The notes under the pieces: generated by a model
Database searches by the model: none
Seen by the model: the letters and a program-made list of their open reading frames with translations, nothing else
What the model was told of the DNA's origin: nothing
NCBI GenBank assembly: GCA_023388355.1
Contig: JAEWGI010000071.1
Coordinates: 62,001 to 126,000, forward strand
Length of the DNA stretch: 64,000 nt
Direction of reading: 5' to 3'
Source: Pseudomonadota bacterium
Lineage (GTDB): Bacteria > Pseudomonadota > Gammaproteobacteria > Xanthomonadales > Xanthomonadaceae
Shown here: positions 4,960 through 63,501 of the stretch, piece by piece
Layout: the number at the start of each line of letters is the position of its first letter
How positions within the stretch are numbered: the first letter of the stretch is position 1
Made by a program: the position numbers and the translations under genes

Positions 4960-6380
4960 TCGCCGATCGGGATGTGGCGCAGGGCCCCGGTTCGCGGATC
5001 GAAGCGGAGCACCGCATGGGCATCGGTGTCGGCGATCCACACCGCGCCGGCGGCCACCGCGAGCCCGGCCGACCCGTGCAGGCGCTGCGGCAGCTCCACC
5101 GTGCTCAGCTCGCCACCGCCCAGGCGCAAGCGACGCAGCGCATCATTGCCGGCATCGGCGATCCACAGCACCGGCGAGTCGGGATCGAGCGCGATCGCCA
5201 GCGGCTGCTGCAGCTGCGCCTCGGTGCGCGCGCCGTCGGCGTTGCCGTACTGCCACTGGTCCTGGCCGACCAGGGTGGACACCACCCCGCTGCGCGCGTT
5301 GACGCTGCGGATCGCCGAGCCGGCCGCGTCGCAGACGTACAGCACCTGCTGCACTGCCGCCAGCGCCACCGGTTCGGCGAACGCGGCGCCCACGCCGCTG
5401 CCATCCATCACCGAAAGCCGGCCCGAACCGGCCAGCAGCTCCAGGCCGGGGCTGCCGAGGTCGTACTTCCACAGCCGGTTGTCGCCGGCGGTGGCGATGA
5501 ACAGCGCCGAGCCGCTCAGGGCCACCGCACGCGGCTGGTCGAGCGCCACCGAGCGCGGGTCGCGGATCGCGCCTTCGGCCGGCGTGCCGGCGCGGCCAGC
5601 GCCGCAGATGGTGTCGATGTCGCCGCTGCGCAGTTCGATCCTGCGCACCGCGTGGTTGCCGCTGTCGGCCACGTACAGGGTCTCGCGCCACAGGCACATG
5701 CCGTGCGGGCGGTTGAACGCGGCCAGTTCCATCGGACCGTCGATGAAACCGGGGCCGCCGCTGCCGAACTGGCGCAGCACCCGCCCGGCCTGGTCGCATT
5801 CGAGCACCCGGTGGTGTTCGCTGTCGGCCACGTACAGGCAGTTGCCCGAGACCACCAGGCCGGTCGGGAAGCGCAGCGGCAGCGGCGGTTCGCCGCCACG
5901 GCGCGTTTCGATCGGGTCGGCGACGGGAATGGTCGGCACCAGCTCGCCGGCCAGCGCGCTGATCCTGGCGTCGAGTTCGCGGACCGGGCCATCGCCGACG
6001 ATGCGGTCGCGGATCCGGCCTTCGCCGTCGATCAGGACCACGGTCGGCCAGGCCTCGATGGCGTAGTGCTGCCACAGCGTCCAGTCCGGATCGTGGCCGA
6101 TCGGGAAGTCGTAGCGCTGCCGGTTGAGTCGCTTGGCGATGCGGCGGCCGTCGCGCTCGCTGTCGAACCTGGGCACGTGTACCGCGACCACGTGGACCCG
6201 CTCGCCGTGGCGCGCGCGCAGCCGCGCCAGGTCGGCCAGCCGGTGCTGGCACCAGGCCGAACCGGCGTTGACGAAGGCCAGGGCGCAGACCTTGCCCCGC
6301 AGCTGCGCCATGCGCAGCGGCGCCAGCAGGTTCAGCCATTCCACGCTGGGCGGGAATTCGGGGGCGATGGTCGCGTCCAT
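4956..6380 (-). CDS. Thioredoxin-like / NHL-repeat protein
   Basis: A 474-aa protein with an N-terminal thioredoxin-like domain (about residues 15-150) and an NHL-repeat beta-propeller (about 165-470; repeats such as LYVADSEHHRVLECD, LYVADSGNHAVRRIE and LWIADAGNDALRRL). It resembles the bacterial equivalents of NHLRC2. The redox position reads SAWCQH, so only one cysteine remains of the usual CxxC pair; classical disulfide exchange is unlikely. No signal peptide is evident. ATG at 6380 is used; a TTG at 6398 would overlap the upstream phosphatase gene. It sits between a phosphatase gene and uvrC in a tight minus-strand run. Its biochemical role is not established. Confidence 0.8.
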   Translation of the reverse strand: MDATIAPEFPPSVEWLNLLAPLRMAQLRGKVCALAFVNAGSAWCQHRLADLARLRARHGERVHVVAVHVPRFDSERDGRRIAKRLNRQRYDFPIGHDPDWTLWQHYAIEAWPTVVLIDGEGRIRDRIVGDGPVRELDARISALAGELVPTIPVADPIETRRGGEPPLPLRFPTGLVVSGNCLYVADSEHHRVLECDQAGRVLRQFGSGGPGFIDGPMELAAFNRPHGMCLWRETLYVADSGNHAVRRIELRSGDIDTICGAGRAGTPAEGAIRDPRSVALDQPRAVALSGSALFIATAGDNRLWKYDLGSPGLELLAGSGRLSVMDGSGVGAAFAEPVALAAVQQVLYVCDAAGSAIRSVNARSGVVSTLVGQDQWQYGNADGARTEAQLQQPLAIALDPDSPVLWIADAGNDALRRLRLGGGELSTVELPQRLHGSAGLAVAAGAVWIADTDAHAVLRFDPRTGALRHIPIGE

Positions 6381-6387
6381 GGCGGGA

Positions 6388-6882
6388 TTATGCGTCAATC
6401 GGCAGCGAGCGGTCGGCGAGGCGCCGGGCGATGCGGCGCGCCGCGTCGTCGACCAGGGTCCAGACGTGTTCGAACGCCTCGGGGCCGCCGGTGTACGGGT
6501 CGGGAATCTCCGCGCCCTGCCCCACTCCGGCCCACTCCAGCAGCAGGGCGCTGCGGGCGCTGGCGCCTGCCGGGGCGCGCTCGCGCACGTCGGCCAGGTT
6601 GCTGGCGTCGGCGCACAGCAGCCAGTCGAAATGGTGGTAGTCGGCGCTGCGCAGCTGGCGCGCGCGCAGGTCGCGCAGGTCCACGCCGTGGCGGGCCGCG
6701 TTCCCGATCGTGCGCCGGTCCGGCGGTTGGCCGGCGTGCCAGCCGCCAGTGCCGGCGGAATCGAGTTCGACCCGGTGGCCCAGGCGGGCCTCGTCCAGGC
6801 GCAGGCGCAGCAGTCCCTCCGCCAGCGGCGAGCGGCAGATATTGCCCAGGCAGACGATCAGCAGGCGCAGCGGTTCAGACAC
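6388..6882 (-). CDS. Low molecular weight protein-tyrosine phosphatase
   Basis: The 164-aa cytoplasmic protein carries the P-loop CLGNICRSP (C-x5-R) at the N-terminus and the general-acid loop IPDPYTGG near the C-terminus, both complete, so it should be active. In many bacteria such enzymes dephosphorylate tyrosine kinases of polysaccharide export; no kinase lies nearby, so the substrate is unknown. The start is a GTG at 6882 overlapping the end of kdsB by 8 bp; the longer in-frame ORF upstream is a shadow of kdsB. Confidence 0.92.
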
Positions 6883-7651
6883 GGACAGTCCCCATGATGG
6901 CCTGGGCGCGGACCAGATCCTCGGGGGTGTCCACGCCCTGCGGGAAGGGTTCGGGCGACAGCGCCACCGCGATCGGCAGCCCGGCCTCGAGCACGCGCAG
7001 CTGTTCGAGCGATTCGATCCGCTCCAGCCGCCCCGGCGGCATCGCCGAGAACCGGCGCAGGAAGCCGGCGCGGTAGGCATAGATGCCGATGTGGCGCAGC
7101 CATTCGCCGGCGGCCGCGACTTCGCCCCGGTCCTCGCCCGCGAACCCGTCGCGGTGCCACGGGATCGGCGCGCGGCTGAAGTACAGCGCGTGGCCGGTGT
7201 CGGCCATCACCACCTTGACCGTGTTGGGGTCGAACAGCGCCGCCGGTTCGGCGATCGGTTCGGCCAGGGTCGCCATGCCGGCGCCGCCGGCGGCAAGCAG
7301 CTCCGCCACGCGGCGGATGCCTGCCGCCGGGGCGAAGGGTTCGTCGCCCTGCAGGTTGACCACGATGGTGTCGTCGCTCCAGCCGGCGATGTCGGCGCAT
7401 TCGGCCAGGCGGTCGGTGCCCGACTGGTGGTCGCGCCGAGTCATCGCCACCTGCACGCCGCTGCCTTCGAGCGCGCGCGCGATGCGCTCGTCGTCGGCCG
7501 CCACCCGCACCTCGCGCGCGCCGGCCGCCAGCGCGCGCCGGGCCACGTGCAGCACCAGCGGCTCGCCGCCGAGCAGGCGCAGCGGCTTGCCGGGCAGGCG
7601 CGTGGCGTCATGGCGGGCGGGAATGGCGACGACGAAATCGAGCGGGTCCAT
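6875..7651 (-). CDS. kdsB: 3-deoxy-manno-octulosonate cytidylyltransferase
   Basis: Activates KDO to CMP-KDO for lipopolysaccharide inner core synthesis. The 258-aa length fits the family. The N-terminal nucleotide-binding motif ([15 protein letters not shown]), the central VNLQGDEPF block and [13 protein letters not shown] are present. It lies downstream of lpxK/msbA, separated by a 537-bp repeat-rich spacer, so the lipid A/LPS genes are grouped but perhaps separately transcribed. Confidence 0.97.
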
Positions 7652-7726
7652 GCCCTGATTCTACTTGGGCCGCCCAGTTCCCAGGTTCTTCTCCTCCAAG
7701 GGAGCTGACGCACCCAGGCGCTGCTG

Positions 7727-7915
7727 CCCTGCTCCTTCCCCCGCGTGCGGGGGAAGGTCGGGATGGGGGCGCGCGCCGCAGGCGCGCGTGACGTGGCGCG
7801 GCAACCGGTTTGCCCCCAAACCGTCCGGCCCGGCGCAGCGCGCCGGGCGTCCGGATGGTCCGCGCGGCGGTGCCGCGCAAACGGACCATCCTCACCCCCG
7901 CACGCAGGGGAGGAG
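7727..7915. repeat. Dispersed GC-rich repeat, family B, in the 537-bp kdsB-lpxK spacer
   Basis: Hairpin-forming units CCTTCCCCCGC/GCGGGGGAAGG and a second inverted half (CACCCCCGCACGCAGGGGAG) flank a hairpin of GCGCGCCGCAGGCGCGCG and a further palindrome. Similar units occur at 14630, 16921, 21620, 38766 and 52497. The rest of the spacer (7916-8188) contains no gene that I can support. Confidence 0.75.
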
Positions 7916-8188
7916 CAGCCCCCCGTTGTCACGAATGAACGTCCCCGCGAATGGGAGAGAAACCAATTCCTGCCCCCAGGCGTGCACGCTCGGCGTGGGT
8001 CCGGGCTCATGATCGAAGCGTCGAGGATCGTGGATTCAAGTCGCGTCTGCAGGAGCGACGCCAATAGACGTTCGGGTCGCGATCCAGACCAGGACACCCT
8101 CCCCCCGCTGGATCCGAAGCCGAGCCGCGGCGCGGCCCCCGGACCCGGTGCAAGCCGAAGAACGGACCGCTTTTCCGAAGCCGCGGAA

Positions 8189-9205
8189 TCAGGACTGCGC
8201 CGCAGCCCGCTTCGGACCGAGACGGCCCATCAGGGCCACCCAGAACGCCTCGGGCAGCTGCGCCTCGATGCCGACGCTGGCGTAGCGGTCGGTGGCGAAG
8301 GCGGCGCACTTCACCGCGTCCTTCTCGGTCAGCAGCACCGGCAGGTCGCTGCCGAAGCGCAGATCGTCGGCGCTGTAGCGGTGGTGGTCGGCAAACGCGT
8401 GCGGGACCACGGCGATGCCCTGGCCGCGCAGCATCGAGAAGAACCGCTCCGGCTCGCCGATGCCGGCGACCGCGTGCACGCGCTGGCCGGCGAACGCCGA
8501 CAGCGGCACCGGCCGTCCGCCCGCCATCGGCTGCGCGGGGCCCGGTTCGAACCACATCGGCCATTCGCCGAAGCCCGCCGCCAGGTCGGTTTCCACGCCC
8601 ACGTTGAGCACCCGGAAATCGCAGGAGTCGCCGCGCGCGGGCGGTTCGCGCAGCGGCCCGGCCGGCAGCAGGCGGCCGTTGCCGTAGCGCCTGCGGCCAT
8701 CGATCACCTCGATCTCGATGTCGCGCGCCAGCCGGTAGTGCTGCAGGCCGTCGTCGCAGACCACCACGTCGCAGCCCTCGGCGACCAGTGCTTGCGCCGC
8801 GGCGACGCGATCGCGGTCGACGCGTACGCGCGCGCCGGTGCGCTTGGCCAGCAGCACCGGCTCGTCGCCGCCCAGCGCAGGGTCGGTGCCGGGTTCGACC
8901 CAGCGCGCGGTGGCGGCATCGCTGCGGCCGTAGCCCCGGCTGGCGATGCCGGGATTCCAGCCGGCCGCGCGCAGGCGCTCGACCAGGGCGATGGTCAGCG
9001 GGGTCTTGCCGCTGCCGCCCGCCACCAGGTTGCCGACCACGATCACCGGCCGCGGCACCCGCTGCGCGCGCAGCAGGCCGCGGCGGTAGAGGTCGCGGCG
9101 CACGCGGGCGCCCAGCGCGAACAGCCCCGACAGCGCGCGCGCGTGCAGCGGCACCGGCGCATCGCCATACCAGTAGCGCGGCGGCTGGCCCGGCCTGGCG
9201 CTCAT
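8189..9205 (-). CDS. lpxK: Tetraacyldisaccharide 4'-kinase
   Basis: Phosphorylates the 4' position of the lipid A disaccharide at the inner membrane. The 338-aa product has the family start ([12 protein letters not shown]), a P-loop variant [17 protein letters not shown], the DDGLQHY motif and a C-terminal LLTEKDAVK block. The ATG at 9205 overlaps the msbA stop (ATGA); the long open frame continuing upstream is a shadow of msbA. Coupling to msbA joins the last steps of lipid A synthesis to its export. Confidence 0.97.
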
Positions 9206-43302: not shown

Positions 43303-44793
43303 TCAGCGGCGACGTTCCTCCTGCGCGGTGATCCGCAGGATCTGGCCCGGAGCGTCGGTCAGGACGTAGATCGCGCCGTCGGGGCCGACCACCGGTGCGT
43401 ACGGCCGGCCTTCGGTGGTGAGCAGGATTTCCTCGTGCTGCACGCGCTCGCCGTCGAGGGTGAGCAGGCGCAGCTGGCGCGGCGCCAGCCCGGTGACCAG
43501 GGCCTTGCCCTGCCACAGCGGGAACTCGTCGCCCCGATAGAAGGCCAGGCCCGATACGCCGATCGAGGGCCGCCAGAACCAGGCCGGCTGCTCGATGCCC
43601 TCGCCGCGACGGTCGGGAGTGAGCACGGTGCCGTCGTAGTTGATGCCGTGCGAGACCACCGGCCAGCCGTAGTCGCGCCCGCGACGCACGATGTTCAGCT
43701 CGTCGCCGCCGCGCGGGCCGTGTTCGGTGGCCCACAGGCGGCCGGTGCCCGGCTCGAACGCCAGTCCCTGCGGATTGCGGTGGCCGAGGCTGTAGACGCT
43801 GGCAAGCGCATCGGCGCGGCTGCGGAACGGGTTGTCGTCGGGAACGCTGCCGTCGCCGGCGATGCGGTGGACCTTGCCGTGCGGCCGGCCCGGCTCGCGC
43901 GCCAGTTCGGACGCGCCGCGGTCGCCGACGGTCAGGTACAGGCGTGCGTCGTCGTCGAACGCCATGCGTCCGCCGAAATGCCACCAGGCGTCGCCGTAGT
44001 CGGCAGCGGCGGTCTCGAACACCGTCTGCTGGTCGACCCAGGCGTTGCCGCGCAGCCGCCCGCGGACCACCCGGGTCATCGCCACTGATCCTTCCTGTGC
44101 CTCACTCGCCGGCCGCGGATGGCTGTAGCTGAGGTAGATCCAGCCGTTGCGGGCGTGGTCGGGGTCGAGCGCGATGTCGAACAGGCCGGACTGGTTGGTG
44201 CGGTCGTCGTGCACGTGGACCGCGGGTGTGCCCGAGACCGGCTGCGGCTGCAGCACGCCGCGGCGGATCACGCGCAGCCGGCCCGCGCGCTCGCTGACCA
44301 GGATGGTGTCGGCGTCGATGAAGGCCATGGACCACACCGCCTCCAGGCCGTCGGCGAACACCTCTACCCGCAGCGCGTAGTCGAGCGTGTCGTGCACACC
44401 GGGCACGGCGTCGAACGTCCGCTGCGGCGGCTCCGCGGCGGCCTGTTCCTCGTCGTCCGGGTCGGCATCATCGTCCCGGGTGGGAAGATAGGCGGCAAGT
44501 GCGGCGATCTCGTCCGCGGACAGGGTCTGGCCGAACGCCGGCATGCCGCGCGAGACCATGCCGTTGCCGATCACCCGCTCGATGTCGCCGCGGCGGCCGC
44601 CGTAGCGGTAGCTGTCCGGCGCCAGGGGCGGCCCGAGGCCGCTGCCTTCGCGCGCGGCGCCGTGGCAGGAGGCGCAGTTGTCCTGGTAGAGCGCGGCGGC
44701 GTCCTGGGCCGTGGCCGGCGTGGCGATGGCGGCGAGCATGGCGGCGAGCAGTCCGGGCAGCGGCATGCGGACGCGGGGGATGGCTTGGGGCAT
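43303..44793 (-). CDS. Cytochrome c / PQQ-type sugar dehydrogenase fusion
   Basis: A 496-aa exported protein: signal peptide, a class I cytochrome c domain with heme motif CASCHG (about residue 40) and axial Met region GMPAFGQTLS (about 84), an acidic linker (DDDADPDDEEQ), then a glucose/sorbosone dehydrogenase propeller (about 130-490; NQSGLFDIALDP, LGHRNPQGLAF, EHGPRGGDELNI). The fusion would pass electrons from the sugar-oxidising cofactor to the heme. The start at 44793 follows GAGGA. It depends on the ccm system encoded 17 kb away. The upstream in-frame extension is antisense to the next gene. Confidence 0.88.
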   Translation of the reverse strand: MPQAIPRVRMPLPGLLAAMLAAIATPATAQDAAALYQDNCASCHGAAREGSGLGPPLAPDSYRYGGRRGDIERVIGNGMVSRGMPAFGQTLSADEIAALAAYLPTRDDDADPDDEEQAAAEPPQRTFDAVPGVHDTLDYALRVEVFADGLEAVWSMAFIDADTILVSERAGRLRVIRRGVLQPQPVSGTPAVHVHDDRTNQSGLFDIALDPDHARNGWIYLSYSHPRPASEAQEGSVAMTRVVRGRLRGNAWVDQQTVFETAAADYGDAWWHFGGRMAFDDDARLYLTVGDRGASELAREPGRPHGKVHRIAGDGSVPDDNPFRSRADALASVYSLGHRNPQGLAFEPGTGRLWATEHGPRGGDELNIVRRGRDYGWPVVSHGINYDGTVLTPDRRGEGIEQPAWFWRPSIGVSGLAFYRGDEFPLWQGKALVTGLAPRQLRLLTLDGERVQHEEILLTTEGRPYAPVVGPDGAIYVLTDAPGQILRITAQEERRR

Positions 44794-44944
44794 GGAGTCC
44801 TCACGGGCTGGGGCCGCCGGTGACGGCCGTTCGACCCCGCCAGCTGAGCGCATCCGCCCCCGCAGCCGAATGGAGGAACCCTGTGGTTTTGCTATAGATT
44901 CCGTGCACGGCGCATTCTGGCGTCGCCAGGAGTCGATATCCGGG

Positions 44945-47230
44945 GTGAGCGAACACACCGCCATCAGCAAGATCCAGACGCCGCAGGACCAGGCGAACCC
45001 GGGCCCGCCGCACGGCTTCAGCGCCGGCGAGGCGCTGGTCCAGCCCTCGCTGAACCGCATTTCGATCCGCGGACGGGTGGCCCAGGTCGAACCCAAGGTG
45101 ATGCAGGTCCTGCTGATGATGGCCGAGCGGCCGGGCGCGGTGATCGCGCGCGCGAGCTTCCTGGACACGGTGTGGGCCGGCACGGTCGGCGACGATTACC
45201 TGCTCAACCGCGCGATTTCCGAACTGCGCCGGATCCTGGACGACGATCCGCAGTCGCCGCGCTACATCGAGACCATCCGCAAGGGCGGCTACCGCCTGGT
45301 CGCGCCGGTTGCGCCAGCCAGGGTGGCCGCGGCGCTGGCGCCGGCTGCGCAGCCGGACGAGGCGGTGGCACCCGCCGACGCGGACATCGACGCCGACGCG
45401 AGCGCCGAAGCGGGCGATGCGCAGGCCGGCGCCGGCGCGGAGACGGACGCGGCGACGCCGTCCCCTGCCCCACCCACGACCGCGCCTGCCGGATCTCGAC
45501 GCATCCCCCTCGCGATCGCCGCCACGCTGGCCCTGGCGCTGCTGCTGGTGGCCGCCTGGAGGCTGTGGCCAGGCGCAGCATCCGGTCCGGCCGCGGCCTA
45601 CGCGGTGCAGCCGCTGACCAGCTTCGTCGGCCGCGAACTGGAGCCGGCAATCTCGCCCGACGGCAGCCGCGTCGCCTTCCTCTGGGACGACGGCGGCGCG
45701 TTCGACGTCTACGTCAAGGCGGTCGGCAGCGCGGAAGTGCTCAACCTCAGCAGCAGCCCGGTGGACGAGCGCCACCCGCTGTGGACGCCCGACGGTCGCG
45801 CGCTGCTGTTTGCGCGCAGCGGTGGCGACGGCATCTCGATCATGCACGTATCCGCCCTGGGCGGCACCGCGATCCGGGTCTTCCACGATCCGGCGATGCG
45901 CCAGCTGCGCGGCATGAGCCTGTCGCCCGACGGCAGTCACCTGGTCTACGCCGCGCGGGAACGGTCCAATGGCCCCTACCGCCTGCACCTGGCCGGGCTC
46001 GAGGACGGCAGCCGCCGGGCGCTGACCGATCCGGGCAGCGGCGTGCTCGGCGACCTCGACCCGCGCTTCGCCCCGGACGGCCGCTCGATCGTGTTCGCGC
46101 GCGCGGTCAACGAGGTCACCCGCGACCTGCACCGCGTGGCCGTCGACGGCGGCGCAGCGCAACGGCTGACCTTCGACAACCGCAAGATCAACGGCCTGGC
46201 CTGGTCGCCCGACGGCGAGCGGATCCTGTTCACCTCCACCCGCTCCGGGCTGTACGCGCTGTGGTCGCTGGCCCCCGACGGCGGCGACCCGGTGCAGGTC
46301 GCGCTCGGTAACGAGGACGTGCACCAGCCGGCGACCGCGCCCGGGATCGATGCGATCGCGTTCGAGCAATGGATGCACCGCTCGCGCCTGCGCCAGGTCG
46401 ACCTGACCAGCGGCGCGGAGGTCGATCCCGGCCGCCACTTCCGCTCCACGCGCTGGGATTCGAACCCGGCCTGGTCGCCCGACGGCCGGCGCATCGCCTT
46501 CAGCTCCAACCGCGGCGGGCCGCATGCGATCTGGGTCAGCGCCGCCGATGGCGACGGCGCGGTCGAGATCGCGTCCTTCGGCGGCAGTTTCATCGACAAC
46601 CCGGCCTGGTCGCCCGACGGCCGCCGGATCGCGTTCGACGCCAGCCCCGACGGTCGCACCACGATCTACGCGGTCGCCGCCCAGGGAGGCACGCCGCAGC
46701 CGCTGGTCGACGGCCCGGGCGACAATCGCAATCCGGCCTGGTCGCGCGACGGCGCCTGGCTGTACTTCGAATCCAACCGCAGTGGCGGCTGGCGCGTCTA
46801 CGCGCAGCCGGCCGGCGGTGGCGAAGCGGTGGCGGTGACGCCGACGACCGGATGGCATGCGCGCGAATCGGCCGACGGGCGGTTCCTGCTCTACGCCCGG
46901 CCCGACGCGCCGGGGCTGTGGCAACTGCCGCGGCGGGACTGGGCGGCCGGCGGCGGGCCTCCACGCGAGACGCTGCTGGTGGCGGACTTGGATCCGGCCG
47001 ATGCCGGCAACTGGGCCTCGGGCGATGCCGGCGTGTACTACGTGCGCCGGCCGGACGATGCGCCGGTGCTGTCGCTGCATACGCCCGCAGACGGCGCGAC
47101 CGTGGACCTGCTGGAGCTTCCGCCCGGGTTCGAGGGCTGGGGCTTCGACCTGTCGCCCGACCAGTCGCAGTTGCTGTTCTCGGAGCTGACCACCCGCGAA
47201 AGCGACCTGCGCCTGGCGCTGCCGATGTAG
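44945..47230 (+). CDS. ToxR/CadC-type winged-helix regulator with TolB-like beta-propeller
   Basis: The 761-aa protein has an N-terminal OmpR/ToxR winged helix (about residues 25-120; VMQVLLMMAERPGAVIARASF, YIETIRKGGYRLVAPV), an Ala/Asp-rich linker, one membrane helix (about 185-205; LAIAATLALALLLVAAW) and a large periplasmic WD40-like PD40 propeller with repeated NPAWSPDGRRIAF units. This is the one-component membrane-regulator layout, with the propeller as probable sensor. A GTG at 44945 is used. It is divergent from the cytochrome/sugar dehydrogenase gene and is its most likely target. The TAG stop lies in a REP repeat. Confidence 0.88.
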   Translation: MSEHTAISKIQTPQDQANPGPPHGFSAGEALVQPSLNRISIRGRVAQVEPKVMQVLLMMAERPGAVIARASFLDTVWAGTVGDDYLLNRAISELRRILDDDPQSPRYIETIRKGGYRLVAPVAPARVAAALAPAAQPDEAVAPADADIDADASAEAGDAQAGAGAETDAATPSPAPPTTAPAGSRRIPLAIAATLALALLLVAAWRLWPGAASGPAAAYAVQPLTSFVGRELEPAISPDGSRVAFLWDDGGAFDVYVKAVGSAEVLNLSSSPVDERHPLWTPDGRALLFARSGGDGISIMHVSALGGTAIRVFHDPAMRQLRGMSLSPDGSHLVYAARERSNGPYRLHLAGLEDGSRRALTDPGSGVLGDLDPRFAPDGRSIVFARAVNEVTRDLHRVAVDGGAAQRLTFDNRKINGLAWSPDGERILFTSTRSGLYALWSLAPDGGDPVQVALGNEDVHQPATAPGIDAIAFEQWMHRSRLRQVDLTSGAEVDPGRHFRSTRWDSNPAWSPDGRRIAFSSNRGGPHAIWVSAADGDGAVEIASFGGSFIDNPAWSPDGRRIAFDASPDGRTTIYAVAAQGGTPQPLVDGPGDNRNPAWSRDGAWLYFESNRSGGWRVYAQPAGGGEAVAVTPTTGWHARESADGRFLLYARPDAPGLWQLPRRDWAAGGGPPRETLLVADLDPADAGNWASGDAGVYYVRRPDDAPVLSLHTPADGATVDLLELPPGFEGWGFDLSPDQSQLLFSELTTRESDLRLALPM

Positions 47231-47606
47231 GAGCGGCTTCAGCCGCAATTGCCGCATCGGGTGGCACGCAACCCGGGCTGCCGTTCGCGGCTGTTACGGA
47301 TTTGCATTCAATGTTTCAGGTTGTCATCCCGAGCCGTAGGCGAGAGATCTGCGGAAAAGCAGATCTCTCCCTGCGGTCGAGATGACAGGCTGTTCCATAC
47401 GTCTGAACGCAGCGATTGCCGTGTCGCACGGCCCGCAACCCGGGCTGCCGATCGCGGCTGAAGCCTCTCCCACGGAACGGAGATCGGAGCGGCGGATGGG
47501 TATGTTTCATGTTGTCATCCCGAGCCGCAGGCGAGGGATCTGCGGAAAGGCAGATTGACCAGCCTCCGGCTGTTGTGAAGCGCTTCTCCCTGCGGTCGAG
47601 ATGACA
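47227..47606. repeat. Cluster of family A and family C palindromes
   Basis: A 415-bp gap between the regulator and the GGDEF/methyltransferase gene holds GTAGGAGCGGCTTCAGCCGC (47227), two copies of a GCCCGCAACCCGGGCTGCC segment (about 47263 and 47432), an inverted REP arm (47451) and two complete family C palindromes (47322-47387 and 47514-47606), the second carrying an extra 30-bp insertion. No gene is supported. Confidence 0.8.
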
Positions 47607-47645
47607 GTTGCTCTATGCGTCTGAACGCGAATCCGTATGCCGCTC

Positions 47646-50159
47646 CTACGGAACGACGGACGCCGGCACTGCGGGCGGATGCAGTTCGCCCAGCGGCGGG
47701 ATGACGAGGGTGGTGTATTCCTCGTAGTGGGCCTCGGGCAGGTCGCGCAGGGGCAGGCGTTCGATGCGCGGAGTCTCGATCGGCAGGCGCGCGGCTTCGT
47801 ACAGGATCACCTCGTGCTCCGGCGGGTACCAGCGCAGCAGCCGGTCCACCAGCGCCTGCAGTCCCTCGCGCTCGGCGTGGAAGCGCGTGCACGACAGGTC
47901 GCCCGACAGCGCCACCTGCCACAGCAGCACCAGCGCGGACGTGTCGGGAACGCGGTCGTAGTGCAACAAGTGGGTGGCTTCCATCGAATGCACGCCGCGC
48001 CGCCCCGGATCGATGCCCAGGTCGACGTACAGGCAGGCCTCGGCCGACACCCCCGGCTCCATGCGCGCGGCGATCCCCTCCTCGCGCGCCTTGCGCACCA
48101 CCACGTGCGGCACGTCGGCGAACACGCCCGGGTGGCCGTAGAACACCGCGCACACGCGCTTGCCCGCGCGCACCTCGGCCATGATCGCGGCGTCGATCTC
48201 GCGATAGGTCTCGCGCCGGTCCTTGCCCACGGCGTAATGCGCGCCGAGGTTGATCGCATCGGGGCGCATGCTCTGGATCATCGCCAGCGCGAACGGATCG
48301 GTCAGGCAGAACACCACCTGCGCCTCGCGGATCTCCGACAGGCAGCGCTCGCTGACGTGGCGGCCGAACTCGATCCCGCTGCCCACCACCACCAGGCCGC
48401 CGCTATCCCCGGCCCCGGGCGCGGCATCGTCCGCGCATACGGTGCAGTCGCGGCCGGCGTATTTCGCCCGGTACAGCGCCTGGTCGGCCTCGTGGACCAG
48501 CTGTTCGAGGGTATTGGCGTGGTCGTTGGCCTCGCACACCCCGGCGCTGATGCTGAAGTGCACGGTCTGGCCGAACACGCTCACCGCCCCGACCCGCCCG
48601 CGCAGTTTCTGCAGCAGCGCCAGCGCCTGCTCCTGGTCGCCGTCGAGCAGGATGGTGAACTCGTCGCCGCCGCTGCGCCCGGCGATGCCGCGGCCGTCGA
48701 CCACCTCCGTGATCCAGCCGCCGAGCGCGCGCAGCGCGGCGTCGCCCGCCGCGTGGCCGTGGCGATCGTTGACCTCCTTGAAGCGGTCGATGTCGAGCAC
48801 GATCGCGGTGAACGGCCGCTGCTCCCGCTGCGCGCGGTCGAACGCTTCCTCGCCCAGCTTGCGCGCCTGCTGGTAGTTGAGCAGGCGGGTGAGGCTGTCG
48901 TGCTCGGACTGCCAGCGGTAGCGGCGCCTTTCGAGGAACGAGCGCCGCAGCAGCACCACCAGCAGCAGCGCGGTGGCCAGCAGCGCGACCACGCCGGCGA
49001 CCAGCAGCCACTGCCAGCGCCGGGTGGCGGTCACCTGCAGCGCGGCCAGCTCCTTCTCCGCTTCCAGCAACGCGATCTGCTGCTCCTTCATGCGGGTGTC
49101 GAACTCGACCTGCAGGTAGGCCAACTGGCGCTCGCGCGCGGAGCGCTCGGCGGCCTCCGAGGCTGCGGCGGCGGCCTTGAGGTGCTGCACCGCCTGCGCA
49201 AGGTCGCCGCGGCGCTCGGCCAGGCGCGCGGCCAGCGATTCGGTTTCGGCCAACGCCAGGTCTGCTTCGTGCTCACGGTAGTAGCGCAACGCGTCGCTGA
49301 GCAGGTCGCCGGCGTGGTCAAGCTCGCTGTTGGTGTCGATCAGGCACTCGGCCACCACCAGGCTGGCGCTTCGCACGCCCGCCGAGAAACCCGCCGCCTC
49401 GAACTCCGCCAACCCCTCACGCGCCCAGGCCAGCGCTTCCTCCGGCCTGTCCTGCGCGACCAGCATCCTGCCCACGCCGTACTTGGCGTTGGCAAGGAAG
49501 ATGCGGTCGCCGGCCTTTTCGCAGGCGTCGATCTGACGCCGCCGCCAGCGCTCGGCTTCGGCGTAGTCCCGCGCCTGGTCCTCGGCCAACGCCACATCCG
49601 ACAGCGCATGGCAGATCGGCCGCGGGTCGTCGCCGCCCTCGACCATCGCCAGCCCACGCAGCGCCAGTTCACGCGCTTTGGCGGTTTCGCCGACCAGCGA
49701 ATGCAGGTAACTGGCCACGCCCAGGACGCGCGCTGCATCGTCCGGCGCTTCGGGCAGCAGGGCCAGCGCCTGGCTCAGCCAATTGAATGCCGCCGGCCAG
49801 TCCTCGAGGTTTGCGGCAATGCTGGAGGCAGTGGCGTAAGCGTGCAGCTTCAGGCCCGCCGGCATGTCCTCGTGCAGCAGCGCCGAGAGACCGTCGAGCG
49901 CTTCGCGCAGGTGCCCAGCCACGCCCAGGTTGCGCAGGCGCACGTACTCCACGCGCTGGCGCTGCCCCTGGCTGAGCGCGGCCTGCTGCCCGGCGAGCGC
50001 TTCGATCCTGGCGGCCGACTCCCGCCAGTGCTCGGACACCGACAGCCGCTCGATCTCGGCGACCTGCGGTTCCAGTACGTCGTTTGCGTGGACGGTCCCG
50101 AAGGCGAACGCCAGCCCAAGCACTCCTGCCAGCCAGCGTCGGCCCATCCAGTGGCCCAC
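47646..50159 (-). CDS. TPR-membrane-GGDEF protein fused to a borosin-type alpha-N-methyltransferase domain
   Basis: An 837-aa protein. Residues 1-25 are a signal peptide, 30-350 a TPR-like helical region, 335-380 a coiled coil, 382-405 a membrane helix, and 420-575 a GGDEF domain with intact RSGGDEFTILL (497-501) and the DIDRFKEVND metal site. The RxxD inhibitory site is missing (DGRG instead). Residues 585-825 form a tetrapyrrole-methylase-fold domain: GGLVVVGSGIEFGRHV, LTDPFALAMI, RRETYREIDAAIM, VFYGHPGVFADVPH, MEPGVSAEACLYVDLGIDP, MEATHLL and LVLLWQVALSGD. These are the blocks of OphMA/SonM-type peptide backbone N-methyltransferases. The catalytic domains should be cytoplasmic and the TPR part periplasmic. 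The upstream gene encodes a matching precursor-like peptide. Confidence 0.85.
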   Translation of the reverse strand: MGHWMGRRWLAGVLGLAFAFGTVHANDVLEPQVAEIERLSVSEHWRESAARIEALAGQQAALSQGQRQRVEYVRLRNLGVAGHLREALDGLSALLHEDMPAGLKLHAYATASSIAANLEDWPAAFNWLSQALALLPEAPDDAARVLGVASYLHSLVGETAKARELALRGLAMVEGGDDPRPICHALSDVALAEDQARDYAEAERWRRRQIDACEKAGDRIFLANAKYGVGRMLVAQDRPEEALAWAREGLAEFEAAGFSAGVRSASLVVAECLIDTNSELDHAGDLLSDALRYYREHEADLALAETESLAARLAERRGDLAQAVQHLKAAAAASEAAERSARERQLAYLQVEFDTRMKEQQIALLEAEKELAALQVTATRRWQWLLVAGVVALLATALLLVVLLRRSFLERRRYRWQSEHDSLTRLLNYQQARKLGEEAFDRAQREQRPFTAIVLDIDRFKEVNDRHGHAAGDAALRALGGWITEVVDGRGIAGRSGGDEFTILLDGDQEQALALLQKLRGRVGAVSVFGQTVHFSISAGVCEANDHANTLEQLVHEADQALYRAKYAGRDCTVCADDAAPGAGDSGGLVVVGSGIEFGRHVSERCLSEIREAQVVFCLTDPFALAMIQSMRPDAINLGAHYAVGKDRRETYREIDAAIMAEVRAGKRVCAVFYGHPGVFADVPHVVVRKAREEGIAARMEPGVSAEACLYVDLGIDPGRRGVHSMEATHLLHYDRVPDTSALVLLWQVALSGDLSCTRFHAEREGLQALVDRLLRWYPPEHEVILYEAARLPIETPRIERLPLRDLPEAHYEEYTTLVIPPLGELHPPAVPASVVP

Positions 50160-50181
50160 TTCAACCTCGCTCCGGCTGGTC

Positions 50182-50415
50182 CTAGTCCTTGCCGTCCTTG
50201 TCTTCGTAGGTGCGGATGAGGTGGTTGGTGGCGAACTTGCCGTCGGTCAGGCCGGTCAGGCGCTTGATCGCGTCGTAGTCCTTCTCGAGCATGGCCTTGC
50301 GCTCTTCGTCGGACAGGCCGGCCCGCTTCAGCACGGCCTCGGGATCCTTCTCGTACTCCGACGCCAGCGCCGCATCGCTACCGAGCCTGCGCATCAGTTC
50401 AAGCAGTTTCGACAT
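50182..50415 (-). CDS. Candidate split-borosin RiPP precursor peptide (SonA-like)
   Basis: A 77-aa protein. Residues 1-54 form a small helical domain (LLELMRRLGSDAALASEYEK, DPEAVLKRAGLSDEERKAM, DYDAIKRLTG) of the LigA-like type used as the borosin-binding domain in SonA. Residues 55-77 (LTDGKFATNHLIRTYEDKD...) are a polar tail with a short hydrophobic patch (FATNHLIRTY), the expected position of the methylated core. It starts at ATG 50415 after GGGGGAAG and lies 22 bp before the methyltransferase-fusion gene, as expected for a two-gene RiPP operon. Alternatively it is a stand-alone LigA-like domain protein of unknown role. An in-frame ATG at 50523 would add an unrelated N-terminus. Confidence 0.75.
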   Translation of the reverse strand: MSKLLELMRRLGSDAALASEYEKDPEAVLKRAGLSDEERKAMLEKDYDAIKRLTGLTDGKFATNHLIRTYEDKDGKD

Positions 50416-50933
50416 GAGCTTCTTCCCCCAATCAGCCAGACCACGCCACCGCACGGCGGTTCGTAAACGCGCCGTGGGAACCCCGGGACGGGCATCCGGA
50501 ACCGTCCGCATTCCGGACGCCACAAGTGCCGGACCTTAGCACAGGGCGACCCGTCCCGGAGCCGCCCCGGAGCCGCCTCGGACGCCGGCGGCGACGGCGG
50601 TCGCCGCCGGCCGAACCCGGCGAAGCCAGGTTCGTCGCCCAGGCTGGTCATTCCAATGTGGCCGCCCGGCATGCGAAATCGGGTATCGCGCCAGGCCTGC
50701 GGCGCGCCGGACGGCCGGCAGGGACAAGGTGGCGGAAGCCGCATGTTTCCCGTGCATTCGCGCGATCCGCCATCGCCCGACAGGCGCGGCGGCGCGTGTC
50801 GCGCGCCGGTTGCAGCGGATCGCGCGCGGCGGCGGCCCGGTCGACGGCGGCGACGATGTTGGACAGACTGCGGCCAACCCACCACACCGCGTGCCGCCGA
50901 CGCGCACGCCCCATCCGAGGACACATCGACACC
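50416..50933. other. Divergent intergenic region (borosin operon / GH51)
   Basis: A 518-bp region without a supported gene. On the minus strand TGCTAAGGT at about 50540-50532 could be an extended -10 for the precursor operon, followed in its leader by the dyad TCCGGAATGC...GCATCCGGA-like sequence (50497-50520). No -35 box, LacI site or repeat family was recognised. Confidence 0.4.
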
Positions 50934-52472
50934 ATGACCATGCCCGCCTTCCTGCGCGCCAGCGCCTGCGCCCTGCTGCTGTCCGCCGCCACGCCGCTGG
51001 CGCTGGCCGGCACCGTCACCGGCACCGTCCAGGTCGACCGGCCCGGAGCCGTGATCGCGCCCGAGCTCTACGGGCAGTTCATGGAGCAGTTGGGCACCGG
51101 CATCGACGGCGGCATCTGGGTCGGGCCCGACTCGGACATCCCCAACACCCGCGGCTACCGCAACGACGTGCTCGCCGCGCTGAAGGAACTGCAGGTGCCG
51201 GTGCTGCGCTGGCCCGGCGGTTGCTACGCCGACATCTACGACTGGCGCACCGGCATCGGCCCGCGCGACCAGCGTCCGGTCACGCTCAACCGCTGGTGGG
51301 GCAACAAGGAGGAGCACAACGCCTTCGGCACCCACGAGTTCTTCGAGTTCGCCGAACTGCTTGGCGCCAAGACCTTCCTCAACGTCAACGTCGCCACCGG
51401 CTCGCCGCGCGAGGCGATGCAATGGGTCGAGTACATCACCTCGCCCACCAACTCCACCCTGGCGAACGAGCGCCGCCGCAACGGCCGCGAGGAGCCGTGG
51501 AAAATCGACTTCCTCGGCATCGGCAACGAGCCCAACGGCTGCGGCGGCCGCATGCGCGCGGAAACCTTCGCCGACCTCTTCCGCCAGTACGCCGGCTTCA
51601 TGGTCCCGCACGGCGGCGCGATGCTGATCGCCTCCGGCCCCGACGCGACCGACCCGGCGTGGACCCGGACCACGATGGAGCTCGCCGTCGACCACCTGGA
51701 CGCGTTCTCGATGCACTACTACACCCTGCCCACCGGCGACTGGACGAACAAGGGGCCGGCCACCGGCTTCGACGAGTCGCAGTGGCTGGCGACGTTCGAA
51801 CAAACCTACAAGATCGAACCGATGATCCAGGAACAGACGGCGATCATGGACGAGTTCGATCCGGAGGCGGAGAAGGCGCTGGTGATCGGCGAATGGGGCA
51901 CCTGGTACGACCCCACCCCGGGTTCGCCGGGCGGCTGGCTGCAGCAGCAGAACAGCATCCGCGACGGCCTGCTGGCAGCGGCCAACCTCAACATCTTCCA
52001 CCGCAACTCGCGGCGCCTGCGCGCGGCCGGCATCGCCCAGATGGTGAACGTGCTGCAGGCGATGCTGCTCACCGACGGCGCGAAGATGGTGCGCACGCCC
52101 ACCTACCACGCGTTCCGCATGTACCGCCCGTTCCAGGGCGCCACCTGGCTGCCGCTGACGCTCGAATCGCCGGCCTACGGCAGCCTGCGCGCGGTCGACG
52201 GCACCGCCGCGCGCGGCACCGACGGCAAGCTCCACATCGGCCTGGTGAACCTGGATCCGAACAACGCGATGCAGGTGTCGCTGAACCTGCAGGGCGGCAG
52301 CGCCACGCGCGTCGCCGGCGAGCTGCTGACCGCCAACGAGATCGATGCGCACAACACCTTCGATGCGCCGGACACCGTGCGTCCACAGCCGTTCCAGGGC
52401 GCGCGCGTGGCGGACGGCAGGCTCACCGCGACCCTGCCGGCGAAGTCGCTGGTGGTGCTGACGCTGGAATAG
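50934..52472 (+). CDS. Alpha-L-arabinofuranosidase, GH51-like
   Basis: A 512-aa exported enzyme (signal LRASACALLLSAATPLALAG). Family blocks are APELYGQFMEQLG, VPVLRWPGGCYADIYDWRTGIGP, the acid/base Glu in IDFLGIGNEPNGCGG, DAFSMHYY, and the nucleophile Glu in ALVIGEWGTWYD, followed by a beta-sandwich C-terminal domain. It releases arabinose from arabinan/arabinoxylan side chains in the periplasm or outside. The ATG at 50934 begins the signal peptide; the long upstream open frame is not used. Confidence 0.92.
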   Translation: MTMPAFLRASACALLLSAATPLALAGTVTGTVQVDRPGAVIAPELYGQFMEQLGTGIDGGIWVGPDSDIPNTRGYRNDVLAALKELQVPVLRWPGGCYADIYDWRTGIGPRDQRPVTLNRWWGNKEEHNAFGTHEFFEFAELLGAKTFLNVNVATGSPREAMQWVEYITSPTNSTLANERRRNGREEPWKIDFLGIGNEPNGCGGRMRAETFADLFRQYAGFMVPHGGAMLIASGPDATDPAWTRTTMELAVDHLDAFSMHYYTLPTGDWTNKGPATGFDESQWLATFEQTYKIEPMIQEQTAIMDEFDPEAEKALVIGEWGTWYDPTPGSPGGWLQQQNSIRDGLLAAANLNIFHRNSRRLRAAGIAQMVNVLQAMLLTDGAKMVRTPTYHAFRMYRPFQGATWLPLTLESPAYGSLRAVDGTAARGTDGKLHIGLVNLDPNNAMQVSLNLQGGSATRVAGELLTANEIDAHNTFDAPDTVRPQPFQGARVADGRLTATLPAKSLVVLTLE

Positions 52473-52695: not shown

Positions 52696-53739
52696 CTATC
52701 CGCCCTGGAACACCGGCGTGAGCATGCGGAAACTGCCGGCATCGGCATCCAGCTCCACCTCGCCGCCGACCGGGACGATGAACTGCTCGCGGATGTGGCC
52801 GATCATCGCGCCCCGGTAGGCGGGGATGCCGAGCGGCAGGATATGGTCGTCGAGGATCTGCGCCAGCGTCAGCGAGCCGTAGCCTTCGCCCGGATCGCAG
52901 TCGCTGCAGTCGCCGAACACGAAGCCGGCGATGCGGTCGAGCGCACCCATCAGCTTGAGCGTGGTGAGCATGCGGTCAATGCGGTAAGGCGCCTCGGCCA
53001 CATCCTCCAGGAACAGGATCGCGCCGTCGAACGCCGGCAGGTAGGGCGAACCGGCGAGCGCGGTGAGCACGGTCAGGTTGCCGCCGAGCAGCCGCCCGCG
53101 CGCCCTGCCGCCGCGCAGGGTGACGGTGCGGTTGCGGCGCGGCACCAGTTCGTCTTCGTCGGCATCGAGCCGGTTCCGGTAATGCATCAGCTCGCGCTCG
53201 AAGAACAGCCGGCGGAACTGGTCGACGTTGAAGCGGTTCCAGCTGCCGTTGCCGATCGGCCCGTGGAAGGTGACCAGGCCGGTCTGGGCCTGGATCGCGC
53301 AGTGCAGCGCGGTGATGTCCGAGTAGCCCAGCAGCACCTTGGGATTGGCGCGGATCGCATCGTAGTCGAGCAGCGGCAGCAGGCGCGCGGCGCCGGAGCC
53401 GCCGCGGGTGCAGACGATGCCGGCCACGTCCGGATCGGCGAAGGCGTCGTCGAGATCCTGCGCGCGCCCGGCATCGGGGCCGGCCAGGTGGCCGCGGCGG
53501 TCGGCGTAGTGGGCGCCGGTGACCACGCGCAGGCCGAGCGCTTCCATCACCTCGCGCGCAAGCTGCAGGTCGAACGGTTCGGCGACCGCCGAGGACGGGC
53601 TGACCAGGGCCACCGTATCGCCCGGCGACAGCGGTCGCGGCAGCAGCCTGGCCGGTGCCGCCGCCCGCGCGGTTGCGAAGCCGGCGAATGGAGCCAGTGC
53701 CGCGATCGCGGCGGCGCCGATGAAGTCTCGCCTGTGCAT
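52696..53739 (-). CDS. LD-carboxypeptidase (peptidase S66), Tat-exported
   Basis: A 347-aa protein of the S66 family, which trims the terminal D-Ala from murein tetrapeptides. The N-terminus has a twin-arginine signal (HRRDFIGAAAIAALAPFAGF), unusual because classical LdcA is cytoplasmic. Family blocks are VALVSPSSA, IVCTRGGSGAARLLPLLD, VLLGYSDITALH (nucleophile Ser region), GRLLGGNLTVLTALAGSP, ILFLEDVAEAPY and IPAYRGAMIGHIREQF (His region). Periplasmic location would put it on intact sacculus or released peptides. Confidence 0.9.
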   Translation of the reverse strand: MHRRDFIGAAAIAALAPFAGFATARAAAPARLLPRPLSPGDTVALVSPSSAVAEPFDLQLAREVMEALGLRVVTGAHYADRRGHLAGPDAGRAQDLDDAFADPDVAGIVCTRGGSGAARLLPLLDYDAIRANPKVLLGYSDITALHCAIQAQTGLVTFHGPIGNGSWNRFNVDQFRRLFFERELMHYRNRLDADEDELVPRRNRTVTLRGGRARGRLLGGNLTVLTALAGSPYLPAFDGAILFLEDVAEAPYRIDRMLTTLKLMGALDRIAGFVFGDCSDCDPGEGYGSLTLAQILDDHILPLGIPAYRGAMIGHIREQFIVPVGGEVELDADAGSFRMLTPVFQGG

Positions 53740-53938
53740 GCCCTGACCTTGTGCAGCGGGCGTCAGAGCGTAGCAACCGCCGGCGCAGGCAACAATGCGC
53801 GCGCAGGCATCCGCCCGGTGGCGCCTGCGGGTGGACTCGATGGGCCGGAAAACGGGAATGATGGCGGCCCGGCTTGCCGGTCGACAGCGATGGAAGGCAG
53901 CGATGGAAGGCATGGAGCGCCGGCGAGAGGCCGCGCTC

Positions 53939-54937
53939 CTATCCGCCGTGCCCTCCCGGATCCGCGGCGAGCACCGTGCGATTGCGCCCGCTGCGCTTGG
54001 CCCGGTACATGGCCATGTCGGCGCGGGTCAGCCACTCGCCCGCCGGTTCACCCGGCCGGTACACGGCCCCGCCGATGGAGATGGTGATCGGGCGTCCGTT
54101 GCAGCGCAGCCCGCGTTCGACCGCGAGGCGCAACTTCTCGGCCGCCGCCCACAGCGCCTCCGCCCCGGCACCCGGCAGCAGCAGTCCGAACTCCTCCCCG
54201 CCAAGGCGCGAGAAGCGGTCGTCTCCACGCATGTTGTCGCGCACGATCTGCGCCAGCTGCACCAGTACCTGGTCGCCGGCCTTGTGGCCAAAGTCGTCGT
54301 TGATGCGCTTGAAGTGGTCGATGTCGAACACCAGCAGGCCCAGCGGGGTCGACTGGCGGCGACTGGTGGCGAGCGCGGCGTCGAATTCGGCGTCCAGCCC
54401 GCGCCGGTTGCTGGCGCCGGTGAGCGGATCGCGCAGGGCCATCGTCTCGAGCTGGGCGCGCTGGCGTTCGGCGCGCGTGGCGAACACGTAGGAGAACAGG
54501 CTCACCACCGCCGCGGTTGCCAGGAAGGCCAGCTTGTGGGCCGCGGTGGCCAGGGCGGCACCGCTGCCGGCCACCGCCAGCGTGGTCAGCGCCGAGATCA
54601 ACAGGGCCGGCCTGCGCCGCACCAGCAGGAAGTTCGCGACCAGCACCGGATACACCCAGAACACGCCCGACAGGCCGGCCAGATGGGCCACCCCGATCAC
54701 GCCGGCCGAATAACTCAGCGCGGCAAACAGCGCCGCGCCACGGCTGCGGTTGGTGAGCCATGCATACAGCGAGGCCGAGCCGATGCAGGCCACGATGAGC
54801 AGGTCGACGGCGGCCACCAGGGGCTGCCCCACGACGTAGCGATAGACCGCGAACGGCGTGATGCCGAGCACCGTGATGGTGCCGAACAGCACCAGGATCG
54901 CGAGATGGAAATTCGACGTCAGCCTGTGTGTCCACAT
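53939..54937 (-). CDS. Membrane diguanylate cyclase (GGDEF)
   Basis: The 332-aa protein has six N-terminal helices (about residues 12-170) and a C-terminal GGDEF domain with DPLTGASNRRGLD, DIDHFKRINDDFGHKAGD and active site SRLGGEEFGLLL. An RxxD inhibitory site is present (RGDD, five residues upstream of the GGEEF motif). The start is ATG at 54937; a longer frame to 55189 lacks family features. Third GGDEF protein in this window, with no adjacent partner. Confidence 0.9.
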   Translation of the reverse strand: MWTHRLTSNFHLAILVLFGTITVLGITPFAVYRYVVGQPLVAAVDLLIVACIGSASLYAWLTNRSRGAALFAALSYSAGVIGVAHLAGLSGVFWVYPVLVANFLLVRRRPALLISALTTLAVAGSGAALATAAHKLAFLATAAVVSLFSYVFATRAERQRAQLETMALRDPLTGASNRRGLDAEFDAALATSRRQSTPLGLLVFDIDHFKRINDDFGHKAGDQVLVQLAQIVRDNMRGDDRFSRLGGEEFGLLLPGAGAEALWAAAEKLRLAVERGLRCNGRPITISIGGAVYRPGEPAGEWLTRADMAMYRAKRSGRNRTVLAADPGGHGG

Positions 54938-55049
54938 CACGCCTCTCCGCCTGGCCCGTCGCGGCCACCTTGTCGATTGTGTCTTGACGCCGAGGGAAGG
55001 CTGGCGAGCCGCCGGATGCAGCGTCCAGCAGCGCGTGTTGGCCGAGGGC

Positions 55050-55235
55050 TTACCAGAGGTGCTGCCCGATGTGCGCCCTGAGCGCCGGACAATTCCCGAT
55101 CCTCGCAGCGTGGGCCCCGGCCATCCGTTCGGCCTGCTGCTCCATCGCATGCGCGTCACGCAGCCAATCGGGCAGGTGTCCGCGTGCATCAGTCACCAAT
55201 GAGTCTCCGGCGCGGGGAGTCGCGATTGTCTGCAT
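55050..55235 (-). pseudogene. Truncated DUF892 (YciE/YciF-like ferritin-like) gene remnant
   Basis: A 61-codon frame with LPDWLRDAHAMEQQAERMAG and NCPALRAHIGQHL, which is the N-terminal helix pair of DUF892 ferritin-like proteins (usually about 160-170 aa). A stop follows immediately (HLW*), and the expected continuation (further helices with metal ligands) is not recognisable in any frame downstream. A disrupted gene is the likeliest reading; a genuine short protein is possible. Confidence 0.5.

Positions 55236-61601: not shown

Positions 61602-63501
<1,900 letters not shown>

Follow-up and report, generated by a model that had tools for sequence, protein, structure and literature searches.

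We analyzed a 64,000-nucleotide stretch of DNA (the window; positions 62,001 to 126,000 of contig JAEWGI010000071.1) from a bacterium of the family Xanthomonadaceae, for which a split-borosin locus with a fused N-methyltransferase had been predicted from the sequence alone. The two genes concerned were found at the positions given in this original prediction, both on the minus strand: an open reading frame (ORF) for a 77-residue peptide (50182-50415) is followed, after a gap of 22 bp (50160-50181), by an ORF with a GTG start codon encoding a protein of 837 residues (47646-50159). The small ORF begins at an internal ATG, and the longest ORF of the same frame starts with GTG at 50523. The large protein comprises, from the N to the C terminus, a predicted signal peptide, a TPR region, a predicted membrane helix, a GGDEF domain, and a methyltransferase domain.

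For the large protein, Pfam reported TPR_12, GGDEF (residues 419-571, 48447-48905, 9e-35), and TP_methylase (residues 589-793, 1.1e-17). A putative signal peptide covers residues 1-25 (50085-50159; read from the sequence, without a dedicated predictor) and a putative membrane helix residues 384-405 (48945-49010; hydropathy of 3.0 in the best windows, residues 385-404), both predictions being based on sequence and hydropathy only. With this topology, the TPR sensor domain (residues 26-340, 49140-50084) would be periplasmic. The GGDEF motif (residues 497-501, 48657-48671, within SGGDEF at 496-501) is intact, lacks a preceding RxxD inhibitory site, and reads GGDEF in 120 of 121 aligned fusion proteins and GGEEF in the remaining one, so that the protein would be expected to synthesize cyclic di-GMP (c-di-GMP).

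In a comparison of residues 585-837 with the PDB, SonM of Shewanella oneidensis was matched with an E value of 1.5e-72, the fungal OphMA group with about 1e-39, and one precorrin methylase with 3.4e-4. The SonM-type alpha-N-methyltransferase domain (residues 587-826, 47682-48401) is 48% identical to SonM (116 of 240 aligned residues) and contains the borosin motifs named in the original prediction, YGHPGVF (residues 674-680), PGVSAE (702-707), EATHLL (727-732), and LWQVALSGD (746-754). Y642, R648, Y652, and Y674, located in the stretch 48138-48236, correspond to Y58, R67, Y71, and Y93 of SonM, at which mutants lost activity or affinity for S-adenosylmethionine (SAM) according to PMC8429565, and are conserved in 121/121 sequences, i.e., the window protein and its 120 listed homologues. 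An AlphaFold model of the full fusion protein was good for the TPR and GGDEF parts and poor for the methyltransferase part, for which the top Foldseek match was still SonM (E value of 3.9e-16, but a root mean square deviation [rmsd] of 14.6); because of this poor model, the assignment of the domain rests on its sequence. The Pfam label TP_methylase would fit a tetrapyrrole methylase of the cobalamin type standing next to an unrelated small ORF. This identity was rejected on the E values for SonM and the precorrin-2 methylase, and we assign it next to no probability, since the small peptide also has its own match to the SonM substrate SonA, adopts the same fold in the model, and adjoins 12 of 13 fused loci.

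The peptide matched SonA in the PDB sequence comparison over residues 1-57 with an E value of 4.9e-8, and the LigA family of Pfam with 1.4e-5, barely above the cut-off. The AlphaFold2 model contains helices at residues 3-13, 15-23, 25-31, 36-43, and 47-54, which together form the five-helix borosin binding domain of the leader (residues 1-54, 50254-50415), and a disordered tail. The best structural matches found by Foldseek were SonA chains; for chain 9ch7_H the TM-score on the target was 0.91 and the rmsd 1.1 over 53 columns (E value of 0.026, probability of 1.00). Residues 56-77 (50185-50250) form the predicted core. We found 268 homologues of the precursor, and among 121 precursors of the fused kind the core was strongly conserved, with G59 and F61 invariant and N64 and H65 present in 120. 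By homology to SonM and SonA, the fused enzyme would methylate this core, and the register of SonA places the expected methylation somewhere in residues 62-70.

The fusion of a split-borosin methyltransferase to a predicted membrane diguanylate cyclase is a well established gene. The C-terminal part was matched by 317 proteins of similar length, of which the best 120 all carry GGDEF and TP_methylase, and an assembly artefact was therefore rejected. The named homologues among those listed are mostly annotated as diguanylate cyclase and come from genera including Luteimonas, Pseudoxanthomonas, and Rubrivivax. Columns with at least 95% identity made up 64% of the methyltransferase domain, 45% of the GGDEF domain, and 20% of the TPR region. 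In the single fused locus without an adjoining precursor (L004), the gene starts at a contig end. Whole-genome searches of seven genomes yielded eight full methyltransferase domains, each paired with one of eight precursors; two of the pairs belong to Rubrivivax gelatinosus, and a ninth, partial methyltransferase match was found in genome G007. Because R. gelatinosus does not belong to the Luteimonas-Pseudoxanthomonas group, the two complete precursor-fusion pairs in its genome (L007 and L011) point to horizontal transfer. A partial second methyltransferase copy of about 90 residues with 75% identity was observed downstream of the complete fused pair in L006 (7705-8484).

We then compared 398 genomes of the order to which the nearest named relative, Luteimonas kalidii, belongs. 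The methyltransferase domain was matched in 204 of them at an E value of at most 1e-10. At 70% identity it was still fused (L049, L050). At about 50 to 65% identity the methyltransferase and the TPR-GGDEF protein were mostly encoded by two genes in direct succession, with the order precursor, cyclase, methyltransferase (layout I) in L051, L053-L062, L064-L068, and L075; in L063 the precursor comes after the methyltransferase. At about 40 to 54% identity the usual order was methyltransferase, precursor, TPR-GGDEF (layout II), and in three batches of loci a precursor was called between the two larger genes in 18/19, 20/20, and 10/18 cases. A third layout consists of cyclase, flavin amine oxidase gene, precursor, and methyltransferase (L127-L131, L138, L139, and probably L165); in L127 alone Pfam named a 7TMR-DISM sensor and the amine oxidase. 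The oxidase was observed in six of seven of these loci (L127 at 4181-8621, L128-L131, L138, L139), between the membrane cyclase gene and the precursor, and the precursor tails of the oxidase-containing clusters end hydrophobic, e.g., with MNFIVL.

In a FastTree phylogeny of the methyltransferase domains, the 14 fused sequences, including that of the window, formed one clade with a support of 0.92. The next sequences out were L052, which lies at a contig end, and L051, and the enclosing clade (support of 1.0) otherwise shows layout I with the exception of one locus. As the domain order of the fusion equals the gene order of these operons, the simplest account is that the fusion probably arose once, by a single gene fusion, from an operon of precursor, TPR-cyclase, and methyltransferase genes.

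A GGDEF domain on the same strand was present within 4 kb of the methyltransferase in 88 of 91 loci of the order (69/71 and 19/20), although these are not independent events, as several genomes contribute two loci and all are related. The first count is 70/72 minus L098, which stems from a genome of the class-wide sample, and the second was placed within 4 kb by coordinates. The exceptions are L052, L166, and L145. In L145 (3327-4949) a single ORF of 540 residues carries two borosin-type methyltransferase domains in tandem beside a precursor-like ORF, and no GGDEF gene was found within the 10 kb of this locus. GGDEF domains are common in the order, with 18 to 43 in each of 12 genomes, and one explanation is accordingly that the genes are mere neighbours that share transcription, were later fused, and do separate jobs. 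The 373 GGDEF domains in the 48.3 Mb of these genomes lead to an expectation of about 3% of loci with a same-strand GGDEF domain within 4 kb, and a chance neighbourhood was rejected on this comparison with the observed 88/91. The support for a link is computational throughout, which counts in favour of mere neighbourhood. The linkage in several layouts, the precursor-cyclase pairs without a methyltransferase, and the co-variation of core and sensor, the latter two described below, speak against this explanation and make it very improbable.

Four loci (L132, L134, L135, L146) carry a precursor gene immediately ahead of a TPR-GGDEF gene, and the approximately 10 kb examined for each contained no methyltransferase; the genomes of these loci carry methyltransferases elsewhere. 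In L114 and L121 an extra precursor-cyclase pair follows the complete cluster, the second cyclase of L121 running off the stretch. When the TPR part of the window protein (residues 26-404) was compared with whole genomes, the best match was located within the borosin cluster in 18 of the 24 genomes with a match.

The co-variation of the precursor with its partners was analyzed by partial correlations of precursor distances with those of the sensor, the GGDEF domain, and the methyltransferase; the partial tests (18, 8, and 24) were exploratory, and their p values are uncorrected for this number. For layout II, 47 of 60 loci had one methyltransferase, one precursor, and a cyclase behind, and removal of three loci with cut precursors (L152, L156, L164) left 44. 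In this set the core tracked the sensor (partial r of 0.33, p of 0.0005) and neither the GGDEF domain (0.01) nor the methyltransferase (0.06), and the leader tracked the sensor as well (0.49). The same pattern was obtained for the unfused loci of layout I (n = 19), with values of 0.37 (p of 0.0005) for the sensor, -0.02 for GGDEF, and 0.03 for the methyltransferase. In both unfused sets the co-variation held with rate-matched columns and with ranks, and in length-matched subsamples the means kept the same order.

The presence of a cyclase gene beside the methyltransferase in nearly all sampled loci of the order argues that the peptide is likely a signal for the sensor. We propose that the locus is a peptide-to-c-di-GMP signalling device in which the methylated peptide is read by the sensor of the cyclase, and give this proposal a probability of roughly 45%. 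The C-terminal core would receive backbone methyl groups from the methyltransferase domain, be freed by proteolysis, and be exported; the TPR domain, predicted to be periplasmic, would then sense it, and ligand binding may set the output of the cyclase in either direction. A wider proposal, which we hold only tentatively and regard as doubtful, is that the borosins of this order are peptide signals rather than weapons, each methylated peptide being the cognate ligand of the co-encoded membrane cyclase, and that in the lineage of the window one polypeptide makes and receives the signal and converts it to c-di-GMP.

Several observations weigh against a peptide-sensing device. The best TPR match was located outside the borosin cluster in G058, G102, G111, G146, G180 (a near tie), and G185, no TPR match was found in G307 (1 of 25 genomes), and TPR proteins of other function also matched. 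In a class-wide sample of 369 genomes, 10 of which matched, no linked GGDEF domain was present in 7/7 more distant loci with 29 to 40% identity. The ranges of the partial values overlapped at subsamples of 60 columns and, in layout II, of 100 columns. For the fused set, which is the window's kind (n = 12), the core-TPR value was -0.14 and the core-GGDEF value 0.43 (p of 0.012); this test has little power because the core varies little there, and its outcome still counts against the proposal. For all 31 loci of layout I the values were 0.08 for the TPR region (p of 0.15), 0.29 for GGDEF (p of 0.0005), and 0.17 for the methyltransferase (p of 0.03). Moreover, the precursor gene adjoins the 5′ end of the cyclase gene, and linkage may add to the co-variation; in layout II, where the methyltransferase gene is the other neighbour of the precursor, no comparable tie to the 3′ half of that gene was seen (0.07). 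Finally, a survey of ORFs of at least 110 residues in 53 loci revealed no recurrent peptidase or exporter: besides the cyclase/methyltransferase family and nine over-long precursor ORFs, no family occurred in more than six loci, shorter genes and genes beyond the examined stretches lying outside the scope of this survey. The release and export steps thus have no assigned genes.

The lack of a recurring exporter and the core-GGDEF co-variation of the fused set would be expected if the two halves of the protein were coupled in the cytoplasm without any export, the cyclase half being opened or closed when the methyltransferase half binds the precursor and SAM, so that c-di-GMP would report the level or methylation state of the precursor. 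Both halves are expected to be dimeric, the linker between the GGDEF and methyltransferase domains is short (residues 572-586), and for SonM-SonA dimers of heterodimers whose clamp loops move upon binding are described in PMC8429565. However, cyclase and methyltransferase are separate proteins in most sampled loci of the order, four precursor-cyclase loci have no methyltransferase nearby, and the core tracks the sensor rather than the GGDEF domain in the two unfused sets, which leads us to consider such a coupling unlikely.

Pepsin-like peptidases (PF00026) were detected in 28 of the 398 genomes, 26 of which also have a methyltransferase, and lay at most 3 kb from a listed methyltransferase in five (G050, G082, G128, G255, G296); in G001, a genome of the fused kind, none was found within this distance of the methyltransferase. 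A pepsin homologue of Shewanella, shewasin A, reportedly matures a borosin precursor.

The sharing of an operon-like array by sensor-cyclase and biosynthetic genes, and the 7TMR-DISM sensor that takes the place of the TPR region in L127, would also fit a pathway switch, in which an outside cue at the TPR domain raises c-di-GMP and thereby activates the synthesis or export of a borosin that serves another purpose, for example as an antimicrobial. The near-constant core of the 121 fused-kind precursors is unlike the expectation for a weapon, the co-variation of core and sensor is not predicted by such a switch, and a comparison of the region 46500-51500 with Rfam gave no match, c-di-GMP riboswitches included, up to an E value of 0.1. 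We therefore think that a switch of this type is improbable.

No promoter- or terminator-like consensus was found in the region 47300-50900. Upstream of the pair and on the same strand, the window contains a gene for a peptidase of family S66 (LD-carboxypeptidase; 52696-53913) and, about 4 kb from the pair, a second GGDEF gene (53939-55189, minus strand); in L001, L002, and L003 GGDEF genes are likewise located 4 to 5 kb upstream of the fused pair. On the other side, an ORF on the plus strand (44711-47230) encodes a winged-helix DNA-binding domain with WD40-like beta-propeller repeats. Part of this ORF is shared with a sugar-dehydrogenase ORF of the opposite strand (43303-45183), so that the start of one or both is probably located further in.

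The closest studied system is SonM-SonA, a type IV split borosin of Shewanella oneidensis (PMC8429565; PDB 7LTC), which has the same five-helix precursor leader and the same key residues of the methyltransferase. Unlike the free enzyme SonM, the methyltransferase of the window is fused to a TPR-GGDEF protein; in L140, whose sequence is the closest to SonM in our tree, the methyltransferase is encoded separately, downstream of a TPR-GGDEF gene. The fungal fused borosins OphMA and dbOphMA have a homologous methyltransferase domain, but they carry the core on the enzyme itself, whereas in the window the precursor is separate and the fused partner is a cyclase. From membrane diguanylate cyclases such as SiaD, DgcB, and PleD, which occur in the structure match list, the fusion protein differs by its missing RxxD inhibitory site, and we know of no methyltransferase domain or precursor gene for those cyclases. 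In the peptide-pheromone receptors of the Rap and NprR type the TPR domain is cytoplasmic, whereas the hydropathy of the window protein, with its predicted signal peptide and membrane helix, suggests the opposite; moreover, c-di-GMP would be the output, and the peptide is a borosin-type precursor. With regard to a receptor encoded beside its peptide, as in such systems, we observed adjacent genes and a co-variation of core and sensor in the two unfused sets, but none in the fused set.

The original prediction had also held that no borosin with this architecture has been described. This part did not fully stand: a GGDEF domain, either fused or neighbouring, is mentioned for a published borosin architecture in the Figure 1 legend of PMC11395268, and that article credits borosin types V-X to Imani 2022 and Cho 2022, so that the fused architecture may already be in print. 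Our literature search found no paper linking borosins to c-di-GMP, with Imani 2022, Cho 2022, and Lee 2024 outside its reach. We place the novelty in the linkage across the sampled loci of the order, in the variety of layouts in which it occurs, and in the way that core and sensor co-vary.

As of 2021, no final natural product had been tied to split borosins according to PMC8429565. The conserved tie to sensor-bearing diguanylate cyclases provides a concrete candidate role for them, namely, the peptide-controlled formation of c-di-GMP, and the many natural precursor-sensor pairs offer cores that can be exchanged in tests of specificity. If the proposal is true, TPR-GGDEF sensors would gain a candidate class of ligands, and the locus would represent a pheromone circuit based on a ribosomal N-methylated peptide and wired straight to a second messenger.

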